Shown here: positions 34,467-38,534 of the stretch, piece after piece
Layout of the letters: the number at the start of each line of letters is the position of its first letter
How positions within the stretch are numbered: the stretch's first letter is position 1
Assembly: GCF_025665335.1 (NCBI RefSeq)
Contig: NZ_CP106869.1
Location: forward strand, 4,676,501 to 4,740,500
Direction of reading: 5' to 3'
From: Xanthomonas sp. AM6
GTDB taxonomy: Bacteria > Pseudomonadota > Gammaproteobacteria > Xanthomonadales > Xanthomonadaceae
Length of the DNA: 64,000 bases
Notes under the pieces: model-generated
The model's database searches: none
Seen by the model: the letters and a program-made list of their open reading frames with translations, nothing else
Told to the model about the DNA's origin: nothing
Made by a program: the position numbers and the translations under genes

Positions 34467-34537
34467 TGTAGGAGCGGCTTCAGCCGCGACCGGGGCGTTG
34501 CCGGGAACGCCTGGTCGCGGCTGAAGCCGCTCCTACA
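34467..34537. repeat. Perfect palindromic intergenic repeat after the hemF operon
   Basis: Arms of 24 bases at 34467-34490 and 34514-34537 are fully complementary (core GGAGCGGCTTCAGCC) with a 23-base spacer. It lies between the convergent DUF2164 and yetF-like genes and could terminate transcription from both directions. Confidence 0.88.
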
Positions 34538-34570
34538 GGGGGCGGCCAGCGGCTTGACGCGCCGGCCCGC

Positions 34571-35050
34571 TCAATCGCCCTTGCCGGCGACGATGGTGAT
34601 GTGGCCGTTGGTCTCCAGCAGCGCCAGCCGGACCTCGTCCAGCTGCAGGCAGCCCTGCTGGCGCATCGCCGCCTCGAAGTCGGCGTTGCTGACCAGTTCG
34701 CGGCGCAGCACCTGGCGGAACACGTGGCCGTCGCGCGCCAGCACCACCGGCTCGCCTTCGATCAGGCGCTCGGCGCGCGCGCTGCGCGAGGTGATCAGGC
34801 CGACCCCGAAGTTCAGCGCGATCAGCGTCGCCGCCAACAGCAGGCCGCCGCCGAGCGAGGTGTCCTGGCCGAGCAAGGCGTTCTGCACCGCGTTGCCGAG
34901 CAGCACGATCAGCAGCATGTCGAACGGTGTCAGCTGCCCCATCGCGCGCTTGCCCGACACCCGCACCATCGTCAGCACCGCCACGTACACCACCACCGCG
35001 CGCAAGATGAATTCCCACCACGGCATCGACAGATGGAAGAGATCGGGCAT
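34571..35050 (-). CDS. YetF/DUF421 family membrane protein
   Basis: This is a 159-residue protein with three N-terminal membrane helices and a cytoplasmic C-terminal domain. The pattern VRVSGKRAMGQLTPFDMLLIVLLGN is the DUF421/YetF hallmark, followed by GEPVVLARDGHV and LLETNGHI at the end. The exact function is unknown; related proteins occur with spore or stress functions in other bacteria. The start was set at MPDLFHLSM (35050), directly before the membrane domain. The sX13-like RNA lies just upstream on the same strand. Confidence 0.87.
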   Translation of the reverse strand: MPDLFHLSMPWWEFILRAVVVYVAVLTMVRVSGKRAMGQLTPFDMLLIVLLGNAVQNALLGQDTSLGGGLLLAATLIALNFGVGLITSRSARAERLIEGEPVVLARDGHVFRQVLRRELVSNADFEAAMRQQGCLQLDEVRLALLETNGHITIVAGKGD

Positions 35051-35139
35051 CGCGCGGCTCGCAAGGATGATGGGGCCGCGATCCGGTGCCGGCATGCGCC
35101 GGCGGCCGTGGCGGCGCACTGGATCTTTTCGCAGGCAAT

Positions 35140-35262
35140 AAAAAGCCCCGCGGACCAGGGGGAGGTCGGCGGGGCCAGGGAACGGAGACTTGGGGAGGAG
35201 TCGCCGTTCCTAGATCTGCTCCAGGGGATGGGAGGAGATCCGCGACAGGTATTGCGCCTGTC
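35140..35262 (-). ncRNA. sX13: sX13-like small RNA with three C-rich-loop hairpins
   Basis: On the minus strand, 35262-35244 forms a 5' hairpin (GACAGG/CCTGTC). Next comes a hairpin using 35241-35236 and 35217-35212 with loop region CTCCCATCCCCTGG. A second has 7-bp arms 35210-35204/35185-35179 plus an inner GACT/AGTC stem and loop CCTCCCCA. The last is a terminator stem 35175-35169/35151-35145 plus inner GACC/GGTC with a C-rich loop, ended by a U-run (35144-35140). The total of about 120 nt, the C-rich loops and the position next to polA match my recollection of sX13 of Xanthomonas, a virulence-related regulatory RNA that acts on targets by its CCCC loops without needing Hfq. A TATATC-like -10 box lies at about 35272-35267. 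Expression is not shown by sequence. Confidence 0.85.
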
Positions 35263-35765
35263 GAGGGATATAAAACCATTTTGCACCTTGCTAGTTCGTG
35301 AAGATTTTAGTTAAAAAATTGTCGGATTAAGGGCGGATTCATTCGCGAAATTCGGTGCAACGCAAGGTTCCAAAAACAACTGCTTTTTATAGCTGAATTC
35401 GTGCACAGGAACGATGCGGCTCGACGCCCGCGCTGCGGCATCGATCCCGAAATCGCGCGCTGTCGCCCATCTGGTGCATCCATGCTCCAGCATCGATGCC
35501 GATGCGGGCGAGGGCGGAAAGATTCAGGCGCAAATGCCGGCCGCAATGTTTCATCGTCCGAGAGAGCATCCTTCCGAGAATCACGCTATCGGATGAAGCC
35601 GTTCAGGCGTTTCGCGGCATCGCGAGCGCGTTCCGCCCACTGCCCGTTCGCCTGCGGCTCGGCGGCGACGGCGCCCCGCCTCCGCTCACCGCATCGGCCC
35701 TGGCCCGCCGAATCCCGCGGCCGCGAGTCCCGAGTCCCGAGTCCCGAGTCCCGAGTCCCGCAAAA
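35263..35765. other. AT-richer intergenic stretch upstream of sX13, plus GAGTCCC repeats near polA
   Basis: The part 35270-35400 is strikingly AT-rich (TTTTAGTTAAAAAATTG, CTTTTTATAG) against the GC-rich genome and probably holds the sX13 promoter region. The remainder contains no gene that could be supported. At 35725-35759 there are five perfect tandem GAGTCCC units just past the polA stop. Confidence 0.75.
35725..35759. repeat. Five tandem GAGTCCC units
   Basis: Five uninterrupted copies of the 7-base unit GAGTCCC lie 6 bases downstream of the polA stop codon (which is on the minus strand). Slippage could change the copy number; related GGGA(T/A)TC-type repeats occur at 28276, 39236 and 60216. 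Confidence 0.9.
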
Positions 35766-38534
35766 CTAATGCGCCTCGTCCCAGTTGTCGCCGACCCCGC
35801 TGTCCACCACCAGCGGCACCTTCAGTTCGGCGGCGCCGGCCATCAGCCGGGTCACCTCGGGCAGCAGCGTGTCGACGAAGTCGGCGTCGGCCTCGAACAC
35901 CAGTTCGTCGTGCACCTGCAGGATCATCAGCGCGCGTTCGCGGTGCGGCGCCAGCCACGCGTCCACGGTGACCATCGCGCGCTTGATGATGTCCGCGGCG
36001 GTGCCCTGCATCGGCGCGTTGATCGCCGCGCGCTCGGCGCCGGCGCGCAGGCCCTGCTGCTTGGCGTTGATGTCGTTCAGGTACAGGCGGCGGCCGAACA
36101 GGGTCTCCACGTAGCCCTGGGTGCGCGCCTGCTCGCGCATGCGCTCCATGAAGTCGCGCACCCCGGGGTAGCGGCTGAAGTACAGCGCCACGTAGTCCTG
36201 CGCCTCGCCGCGGCCGATGCCCAGGTTGCGGGCCAGGCCGAACGCGCTCATGCCGTACATCAGGCCGAAGTTGATCGCCTTGGCGGCGCGGCGCTCGTTC
36301 GGCGTGACCTCCTCCAGGCTGCGCCCGAACACCTCGGCGGCGGTGGCGCGGTGCACGTCCACGCCGGCGCCGAAGGCGCGCAGCAGGCCCGCGTCCTCGG
36401 ACAGGTGGGCCATGATCCGCAGCTCGATCTGCGAGTAGTCGCAGGCGATCAGCTTGCGCCCGGGCGGGGCGACGAAGGCGCGGCGGATGCGGCGGCCGTC
36501 CTCGGTGCGGATCGGGATGTTCTGCAGGTTCGGATCGGCCGAGGACAGCCGCCCGGTGGCGGCGCCGGCCTGGTGGTAGCTGGTGTGCACGCGGCCGGTG
36601 TCGAGGTTGATCATCTCCGGCAGCTTGTCGGTGTAGGTGCTGCGCAGCTTGGCCAGGCCGCGGTATTCCAGGATCACCCGCGGCAGCTCGTGCTCGGCGG
36701 CGATCGCCTCCAGCGCCTCTTCGTTGGTGCTGGGCTGGCCCTTGGGGGTCTTCAGCAGCGCCGGCAGCTTCAGTTCGTCGAACAGCACCGCCTGCAGCTG
36801 CTTGGGCGAGTCCAGGTTGAAGGTGCGCCCGGCCAGCGCGGTGGCCTTCTGCTGCGCGGCCAGCATGCGCTGGCTCAGGTCCTGGCTCTGCTTGCGCAGT
36901 TCGGCCATGTCCACGCTGACGCCGTTGGCCTCGATCCGCGCCAGCACCTGCACCAGCGGCATCTCGATCTCGCGGTAGACCTTTTCCAGCGCCGGCTCCG
37001 CCGCCAGCTGCGCGGACAGCGCACCGTGCAGGCGCAGGGTGATGTCGGCATCTTCGGCGGCGTAGCCGGTGGCGTCGTCGATGGCCACCTGCGAGAACGC
37101 GATTTGCTTGGCGCCCTTGCCGGCCACGTCCTCGTACTTGACCGTCTCGTAGCCCAGGTAGCGCCGCGCCAGCGAATCCATGTCGTGGCGGCTGGCGGTG
37201 GAATTGAGCACGAAGCTCTCCAGCATGGTGTCGTCGGCGTAGCCGCGCACGTCGATGCCGTGGCGGCGCAGCACGTGCAGGTCGTACTTGCCGTGCTGGC
37301 CGACCTTGGCCTTGGCCGGGTTTTCCAGCAACGGTTTCAGCGCGGCCAGCGCCAGCTGCCGGTCCAGCTGCACCGGCACGCCGGGGTAGTCGTGGCCCAG
37401 CGGCAGGTAGTCGGCGCGGCCCGGCTCGATCGCGAAGCTGAGCCCGACCAGGTTGGCGCGCATCGCGTCCAGCGCGTCGGTCTCGGTGTCGAAGGCGAAG
37501 CGCTCGGCCACGCGCAGGCGCTCGAGCAGGTGTTCGAACTGCTCCGGAGTCACGATCGCGGTGTAGTCGCCCTTGGCCGCCAGCGCCGGGTCCAGCGTCG
37601 TGTCGACGGGCGCGGCGGCGCGGGCGTAGCCGGCGGCGGTGCCGCGCAGGCTGGGCGTGGCCTCGGCCGCCCCGGCCGGGGCGGCGACGCCGCCGTCCAG
37701 GTCGCGCAGCGCCTGGGTGAAGCCGTAGCGCTGGTACAGGCCGCGCAACTGGTCCGGATCCTGCTCGCGCAGGCCCAGCGTGCGCGGGCCGCCGGGCAGG
37801 GCCACGTCGGTCTTGATGGTGACCAGCTCGCGGTTCAGCGGCAGCCGCGCCAGCGCCGCGCGCAGGTTCTCGCCGATCTTGCCCTTGATCGCGTCGGCGT
37901 TGGCCATCACTCCGTCCAGCGAGCCGTATTCGGCCAGCCACTTGGCCGCGGTCTTGGGCCCGCACTTGTCCACGCCCGGCACGTTGTCGATGGCATCGCC
38001 CATCAGCGCCAGCAGGTCGACGATCTGGCTCGGCCACACGCCGAACTTCTCCATCACCGCCGCGTCGGAGTCCATGCGGCTGCCGCTCATCGTGTTGACC
38101 AGCTGCACGCCGGGGCGCACCAGCTGGGCGAAATCCTTGTCGCCGGTGGAGATGGTCACCTCCAGGCCGTCGCCGGCGCCCTGCAGGGCCAGGGTGCCGA
38201 TCACGTCGTCGGCCTCCACGCCGCTCTCGCGCAGGATGGTGATGCCCAGCGCATGCACGATCTGACACATCGGCTCGACCTGCGCGCGCAGTTCCTCGGG
38301 CATCGGCGGGCGGTTGGCCTTGTACTGCGGGTACAGGTCGTCGCGGAAGGTCTTGCCCGGCGCATCGACCACGAAGGCCACGTACTCCGGGCGCTCCTTC
38401 AGCGTGGCGCGCAGCATGTTGACCACGCCGAACAGCGCGCCGGTGGGCTCGCCGGCGGGGTTGGTCAGCGGAGGGAGCGCGTGGAACGCGCGATACAGGT
38501 AACTGGACCCGTCGATCAGGACTAATCGGCTCAT
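35766..38534 (-). CDS. polA: DNA polymerase I
   Basis: This is a 922-residue DNA polymerase I that performs repair and Okazaki-fragment maturation. The N-terminal ~290 residues are the 5'-3' exonuclease (FLAP-type; LVLIDGSSYLYRAFHALPP at the start). Next comes the 3'-5' exonuclease domain with an intact acidic motif (FAFDTETDAL). The C-terminal polymerase domain carries motif A IACDYSQIELRIMAHLS, motif B KAINFGLMYGMSAFGLA and motif C LQVHDELVFEA. Length and order match the E. coli enzyme. Transcription towards sX13 mirrors the polA/Spot 42 arrangement of enterobacteria. Confidence 0.97.
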   Translation of the reverse strand: MSRLVLIDGSSYLYRAFHALPPLTNPAGEPTGALFGVVNMLRATLKERPEYVAFVVDAPGKTFRDDLYPQYKANRPPMPEELRAQVEPMCQIVHALGITILRESGVEADDVIGTLALQGAGDGLEVTISTGDKDFAQLVRPGVQLVNTMSGSRMDSDAAVMEKFGVWPSQIVDLLALMGDAIDNVPGVDKCGPKTAAKWLAEYGSLDGVMANADAIKGKIGENLRAALARLPLNRELVTIKTDVALPGGPRTLGLREQDPDQLRGLYQRYGFTQALRDLDGGVAAPAGAAEATPSLRGTAAGYARAAAPVDTTLDPALAAKGDYTAIVTPEQFEHLLERLRVAERFAFDTETDALDAMRANLVGLSFAIEPGRADYLPLGHDYPGVPVQLDRQLALAALKPLLENPAKAKVGQHGKYDLHVLRRHGIDVRGYADDTMLESFVLNSTASRHDMDSLARRYLGYETVKYEDVAGKGAKQIAFSQVAIDDATGYAAEDADITLRLHGALSAQLAAEPALEKVYREIEMPLVQVLARIEANGVSVDMAELRKQSQDLSQRMLAAQQKATALAGRTFNLDSPKQLQAVLFDELKLPALLKTPKGQPSTNEEALEAIAAEHELPRVILEYRGLAKLRSTYTDKLPEMINLDTGRVHTSYHQAGAATGRLSSADPNLQNIPIRTEDGRRIRRAFVAPPGRKLIACDYSQIELRIMAHLSEDAGLLRAFGAGVDVHRATAAEVFGRSLEEVTPNERRAAKAINFGLMYGMSAFGLARNLGIGRGEAQDYVALYFSRYPGVRDFMERMREQARTQGYVETLFGRRLYLNDINAKQQGLRAGAERAAINAPMQGTAADIIKRAMVTVDAWLAPHRERALMILQVHDELVFEADADFVDTLLPEVTRLMAGAAELKVPLVVDSGVGDNWDEAH

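Follow-up and report, generated by a model that had tools for sequence, protein, structure and literature searches.

The sX13 small RNA downstream of polA in a Xanthomonas genome: a covarying 5' hairpin and probable relatives across the Gammaproteobacteria

The 64-kb stretch of DNA analysed here, hereafter the window, carries the gene for the small RNA sX13. The Rfam sX13 family (RF02232) matches the minus strand at positions 35253 to 35139, scoring 115.7 bits where the cut-off is 50, over the whole of the model (positions 1 to 115 of 115), and is the sole Rfam family to reach its cut-off across the window. A search of the whole genome with RF02232 likewise returned this locus alone over the cut-off; two weaker matches (20.5 and 16.2 bits) were taken to be at chance level and discarded. 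The RNA begins about 500 bases past the stop codon of polA and is followed by a gene of the YetF/DUF421 type, all on one strand (Table 1). The downstream gene passes the cut-off for DUF421 and falls short of that for the YetF N-terminal domain (25.0, with 26.5 required). An earlier note on this DNA had proposed sX13 between these two genes, to be checked against Rfam, the polA flanks of other Xanthomonas and compensatory changes in the stems; the end-to-end Rfam match, the two neighbours, homologues at the same position in other Xanthomonas, the three C-rich loops and the covarying stems settle that identity. The finding of sX13 itself is thus mostly known, and what is new is the 5' hairpin, the wider family to which the RNA may belong and the promoter of that family.

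Table 1. Features of the sX13 locus in the window
Feature	Positions	Strand	Basis and remarks
sX13 RNA, predicted primary transcript, ~124 nt	35139..35262	-	Rfam match, fold, covarying 5' hairpin, promoter spacing; start predicted
sX13, 115-nt Rfam outline, equal to the length in the 2013 paper	35139..35253	-	RF02232
5' hairpin GACAGG-CGCAATA-CCTGTC	35244..35262	-	Fold, covariation; annotated 5' end 35253 lies inside its loop
Stem-loop 1, loop CAUCCCCU at 35230-35223	35212..35241	-	Fold; stems covary
Stem-loop 2, loop CCUCCCCA at 35198-35191	35179..35210	-	Fold; stems covary
Terminator hairpin and following U run; loop UCCCCCU at 35163-35157	35140..35176	-	Fold
Putative promoter region, GAACTA (35297-35292) and TTTTATAT (35275-35268)	35268..35297	-	Positions correspond to GAAC and TC boxes conserved in relatives
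polA, DNA polymerase I, upstream neighbour	35766..38534	-	
YetF/DUF421-family membrane protein gene, downstream neighbour	34571..35119	-	

The window strain is a Xanthomonas of a genus-level group that it has in common with Xanthomonas sp. AmX2; its nearest relative among the loci listed, at 88.6% over 6111 aligned bases, is Xanthomonas sp. NCPPB 1128, and Xanthomonas sp. AmX2 and X. bonasiae come next. Right after the polA stop, positions 35708-35760 hold 7.4 tandem copies of the 7-base unit CCGAGTC, and the post-polA stretch that contains this repeat is longer in the genus of the window than in sister genera. Three open frames of at least 100 aa cross the RNA (34533-35279 and 34972-35286 on the minus strand, 34601-35314 on the plus strand), which makes the description of sX13 in the earlier note as not visible as an ORF a loose one; a coding function for the region is nonetheless rejected in view of the covarying stems and fixed loops.

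Folding of the 123-nt minus-strand sequence yields -62.8 kcal/mol, compared with -38.1 (SD 3.6) for shuffled sequences (z -6.95), none of 200 shuffles being as stable. The predicted structure opens with a 5' hairpin of 6 bp and continues through two stem-loops to a terminator hairpin and its U run, the same four elements that had been read from the letters, and two terminator-like sites are found on the minus strand at 35160-35146 and 35156-35144. Two stem-loops and the terminator hairpin carry the 4C/5C loop motifs expected of sX13. The second loop had been given correctly beforehand; the string given for the first, CTCCCATCCCC, lies partly inside the stem.

Of 299 genomes of the order, RF02232 has matches in 150 at E<=0.01 and, over its cut-off, in 84, and a version of the model extended with the 5' hairpin (R2) finds 187 of 299 at E<=0.001, the E-values of R2 and of the class-wide model R3 used below being rough owing to a shortened calibration. 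At 60 order loci polA lies upstream on the same strand in 49, at distances of 91 to 2160 bases, and two of the 11 others are at contig ends. Scanning named genomes with a terminator pattern gave at least 80 loci; among the matches listed polA was upstream on the same strand in 76 of 80, the remaining four including contig ends, and the genomes represented were Xanthomonas, Stenotrophomonas, Pseudoxanthomonas, [Pseudomonas] boreopolis, Dyella and Frateuria (both Rhodanobacteraceae), Rudaea and metagenome-assembled genomes. A literature search lying mostly outside the subscription journals found nothing that names sX13 together with Rhodanobacteraceae.

Several variants were seen in the order. 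Five Rhodanobacteraceae loci (L079, L091, L109, L118, L139) carry one more C-loop hairpin, placed after the 5' hairpin and before the terminator, and one genus of that family (g65; L075, L078, L082) has, away from polA, another C-loop RNA whose 5' part differs and which is preceded by a GAAC-like box. One Xanthomonadaceae genome (g13; L046, L047) has sX13 twice in full, with no polA within about 4.4 kb of either copy, and in two others (L347, L348) two C-loop hairpins and a terminator come right after an open frame, possibly as an RNA derived from a 3' UTR.

The Rfam model lacks the left arm of the 5' hairpin, and its 5' end falls inside the hairpin loop, so the 115-nt form looks unstructured at that end; when folded without the left arm, its first 12 nt are unpaired. 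The length of 115 nt is said to come from a 2012 transcriptome paper. The 2013 paper on sX13 also describes an RNA of 115 nt with an unstructured 5' region (PMC3771888). Comparative evidence argues for the hairpin. In 40 distinct Xanthomonadaceae sequences 96.1% of the pair cells are paired and 7 of 9 pairs have changed on both sides, with a covariation score equalled by none of 500 shuffles. The 28 Rhodanobacteraceae sequences give 99.6% of cells paired and 5 of 8 pairs double-changed, with further pair types (9 against 9.1), alone among five measures, no better than shuffles, of which 432 of 500 were as high or higher. Shifting the partners by one to three columns lowers the pairing to 25-52% and 29-50% in the two families, respectively. 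Over 91 distinct rows from Xanthomonadaceae, Rhodanobacteraceae and others, in an alignment fitted to the structure, helix 1 is 96.9% paired with 8 of 9 pairs double-changed. Second matches away from polA (L075, L078, L080, L082) were excluded from alignments A1 and A2, as was L072 from A2; alignment A4 has 93 matches, some of its rows weak. A hairpin search in the named loci accepts tight CAA loops only and misses the Rhodanobacteraceae hairpins, for which it was not used.

Judged by fold and covariation, the 5' hairpin of the earlier note (35262-35244) is real. A conserved -10-like box stands about 7 bases upstream of the hairpin, against about 16 bases upstream of the annotated 5' end, and this promoter layout makes 35262/35261 the probable start of the primary transcript, in agreement with the 35262 suggested earlier; the 115-nt form would then be a processed product of a longer transcript. 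If the 5' end of the 115-nt form is a primary start, the start proposed here is wrong. The published 5' end could instead be the true transcription start, surrounded by a DNA operator and not an RNA hairpin, as the published length and unstructured 5' region would allow; inverted repeats at start sites often serve as repressor sites. We regard this as unlikely: the arms vary freely with compensation and the loop letters GCAAC are kept in nearly all rows, where a protein site would be expected to keep its arms; the -10-like box would sit some 16 bases from the start; the hairpin recurs in the same place, with 9 of 9 pairs double-changed, in 64 class-wide matches that were not used to train the model (see below); and a 5' hairpin also precedes an ErsA gene. 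Plasmid-borne complementation in X. campestris pv. vesicatoria (Xcv) does not need the first 14 nt of sX13 (PMC3771888), and the 5' hairpin is therefore not essential for that read-out. The hairpin, if right, would correct the 5' end of the Rfam sX13 model.

The promoter can be considered in the same way. A sigma-70 consensus has no match within 35100-35800, and such a promoter for sX13 was rejected. The AlgU consensus is GAACTT-N16/17-TCTNN (PMC7641640), and GAACTT-16-TCTTA has been called an RpoE site (PMC9577009). Compared with GAACTT-N16/17-TC, the window has a rightly placed GAACTA and a -10 sequence, TTTTAT, without the TC; two congeners (L027, L029) have TCTTAT there, and the sister genus g6, also Xanthomonas, has GATC and TTATAT at the places of the boxes. 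Xanthomonadaceae loci have GAAC in place in 37 of 52 cases, TC..A in 20 of 52 and both in 19 of 52; at the 28 Rhodanobacteraceae loci AAC is found in all 28 and TC..A in 24. From these counts and box sequences, an RpoE-type promoter looks to have been eroded in those lineages whose sX13 has been studied and described as constitutive. The window genome does encode a protein of the RpoE family (344 bits). The same boxes bear on the suggestion that sX13 is merely the terminator of polA, which would fit its position downstream on the polA strand and its terminator-like 3' hairpin; with a start some 500 bases beyond the polA stop, conserved promoter boxes of its own, three further covarying hairpins and Northern signals published for Xcv (PMC3771888), the RNA is so poorly described by that suggestion that we rule it out.

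How sX13 acts is best known from Xcv, where repression depends on the C-rich loops of the RNA as well as on GGGG motifs close to the start codons, and where its action is independent of Hfq (PMC3771888). The window RNA shares with the Xcv RNA its sequence and structure over the whole model, its place after polA, its three C-rich loops and the GGGG of hfq, and differs in lying about 500 bases from polA, as against 175, and in a strain without the HrpB1 marker described below. The hfq gene of the window genome starts ATGTCCAAGGGG, with GGGG at +9..+12, the same position as the published sX13-dependent site in Xcv (PMC3771888); hfq is probably a target here too. The earlier expectation that the loops bind G-rich sites such as GGAGG agrees with the published motif in being G-rich and departs from it in the letters, since that motif is GGGG near a start codon and not GGAGG alone (PMC3771888).

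In the best reading, sX13 acts in trans, its C-rich loops masking G-rich sites close to start codons. Transcribed downstream of polA by a promoter of its own, from near 35262 to the intrinsic terminator at 35140, it would form a rigid string of four hairpins, of which the 5'-most would most likely protect the transcript or serve as the 5' processing site that yields the 115-nt form, and the other three (stem-loops 1 and 2 and the terminator) would expose single-stranded C-rich loops. These loops would pair with GGGG or GGGGAGG near start codons and lower translation, as in Xcv. We put the probability of this whole account (sX13 with its own promoter, 5' hairpin and C-loop pairing to G-rich sites) at about 85%, its observed parts being family membership, compensated structure, loop conservation and the hfq site.

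The earlier description of a virulence-related RNA needs qualification. In Xcv deletion of sX13 lowers hrp gene expression and delays symptoms, and a virulence role through hrpX and the type III secretion system has been demonstrated there (PMC3771888), so sX13 might be thought mainly a regulator of type III secretion and virulence in the window strain as well. With the HrpB1_HrpK family as a single marker, however, none of 7 genomes of the window's genus, the window genome included, gave a match, against 3 of 7 genomes of the sister genus g6 over the cut-off (the other four being without it over the cut-off), and the search returned nothing in 14 control genomes; the virulence role may therefore not apply in this strain. 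The 2013 paper itself notes sX13 in species without a type III system (PMC3771888). On this one marker a type III role here is doubtful, and to see in virulence the main business of the RNA in this strain seems to us distinctly improbable.

The 2013 paper raised the question of similar RNAs at the polA locus in other bacteria (PMC3771888). R2 finds matches in 39 of 369 sampled genomes of Gammaproteobacteria, 34 of them outside the order; polA is upstream on the same strand in 25 of these 34 (33 to 2242 bases away), not so placed in 8 and cut off by a contig end in one. A class-wide model, R3, built from 76 matches, finds 152 of the 369 at E<=1e-4, of which 5 belong to the order itself and 30 more had been used in R3. 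From these 152 genomes we picked 60 by hand down the E-value list, omitting the R3 training genomes and some contig-end matches; this untrained set spans 41 families, and several of its matches come from families that also supplied training genomes. polA is upstream on the same strand in 34 of the 60, on the opposite strand in 5, not in the stretch in 20 and beyond a contig end in one. With the end of E. coli YihA as a probe for yihA, polA and/or yihA adjoin the RNA in 52 of 60: polA with convergent yihA in 31, yihA alone in 13, polA alone in 3 and, in 5 (L284, L288, L293, L307, L311), both genes with the RNA flipped between them so that it runs in the direction of yihA; the remaining 8 have neither.

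The models cover just 4 bases upstream of the 5' hairpin, yet an exact GAACTT precedes 41 of the 60 untrained matches (1.0% of shuffles) and at least five of its six letters precede 56 (18.3% of shuffles). In all 41 it is followed by TC, at 16 bases in 36 and 17 in 5, as in the AlgU consensus, and it is present in 14 of the 20 matches without polA and in 26 of the 39 with polA near. In an alignment fitted to the model, the 64 matches in the 60 loci have 87.8% of cells paired, compared with 58.7% in shuffles, and 42 of 42 pairs double-changed. Three or more C are found in loop 1 of 63 of the 64, mostly as CCUCCCU, and four or more in loop 2 of 57 and in loop 3 of 43. In a phylum-wide draw R3 found 9 of 259 genomes, 6 of them from the order, so most isolate genomes of well-known groups are missed; no polA was found at the two matches from another class (L345, L346).

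These RNAs invite comparison with others already named. ErsA (Pseudomon-1, RF01719) is over its cut-off in one genome, G459 (121.3 bits), where it lies about 78 bases after polA with a GAACTT-N17-TCATA promoter, a 9-bp 5' hairpin and C-rich loops near the 3' end; it differs from the window RNA in its longer unpaired middle, and from the window promoter in that the -10 box of the latter lacks TC. ErsA is described as strictly sigma-22 dependent (PMC7565897). RF01719 has no match in the window genome at E<=1e-4 and none at its cut-off in the window, and no yihA was found in the 1.5 kb downstream of ErsA in G459. We found no literature naming both ErsA and sX13, again in a search mostly outside the subscription journals. 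Anti-hemB of Burkholderia (RF02837), a model of 81 positions with no match in the window, reaches its cut-off at two (L234, L303) of 30 class loci checked, on the strand and at the place of the match to our own model. The ar14/cuckoo RNAs of Alphaproteobacteria (RF02344) fold into three hairpins whose loops resemble CCUCCUCCC and whose stems vary (PMC10746234); RF02344 has no match at its cut-off in the window. At the class loci anti-hemB is seen below its cut-off at many, and sX13, ar14 and Pseudomon-1/ErsA also appear below theirs; none of these families is shown in a clan. The sequences gathered here link sX13 with RNAs that are classed separately in Rfam.

Spot 42 (spf) of E. coli occupies the same arrangement, polA > spf > < yihA, as 31 of the 60 untrained matches, and is the best unfiltered R3 match in 4 kb of E. 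coli, in register (18.1 bits, E 0.0013; the next scores 7.0). It lacks C-rich loops, and the window, for its part, has polA and no match to yihA in its 64 kb. Kinship of Spot 42 with sX13 is suggestive only, not enough for a claim.

It is conceivable that the class-wide look-alikes are convergent, sX13 being specific to its order and unrelated to ErsA or to the polA-yihA RNAs. Terminators and C-rich anti-Shine-Dalgarno hairpins arise often, and ar14/cuckoo combine three hairpins and such loops with differing stems (PMC10746234); R3 at genome scale (E<=1e-4) does not list the ErsA-bearing G459, reaching 31.7 bits when aimed at a 3-kb stretch around ErsA; 8 of the 60 matches are near neither polA nor yihA; and yihA was not found beside the RNA at the order loci. 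Convergence nevertheless leaves unexplained why 52 of the 60 adjoin polA and/or yihA, neither of which is in the model, and why GAACTT, followed by TC at a fixed spacing, is so much more frequent than in shuffles, and we think it the less probable course. Common descent of sX13 with ErsA is likely, if unproved. We lean towards the view that sX13, ErsA and the polA-yihA RNAs of Gammaproteobacteria come from one ancestral RNA, which would have had an RpoE/AlgU-type promoter, a 5' hairpin and loops of the type CCUCCCU/CCCC/CCCC masking ribosome-binding sites in envelope stress; the RNA would have been duplicated in tandem several times and flipped in some lineages, its promoter would have drifted from the RpoE type in Xanthomonas and Stenotrophomonas, and Spot 42 may be its much altered counterpart at that locus. 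The common logic thus suggested, in which an envelope-stress promoter drives a non-coding RNA with loops that mask ribosome sites, is a hypothesis testable across the family, and would turn sX13 from a virulence RNA into a general stress RNA put to use by some pathogens.

Multiple copies were seen at several class-wide loci. Four sX13-like RNAs follow polA directly in tandem in two genomes of one family (L242, 4151-4906, and L243, 4060-4997, both on the minus strand), and tandem pairs were found at L244, L253, L048, L279, L281 and L293.
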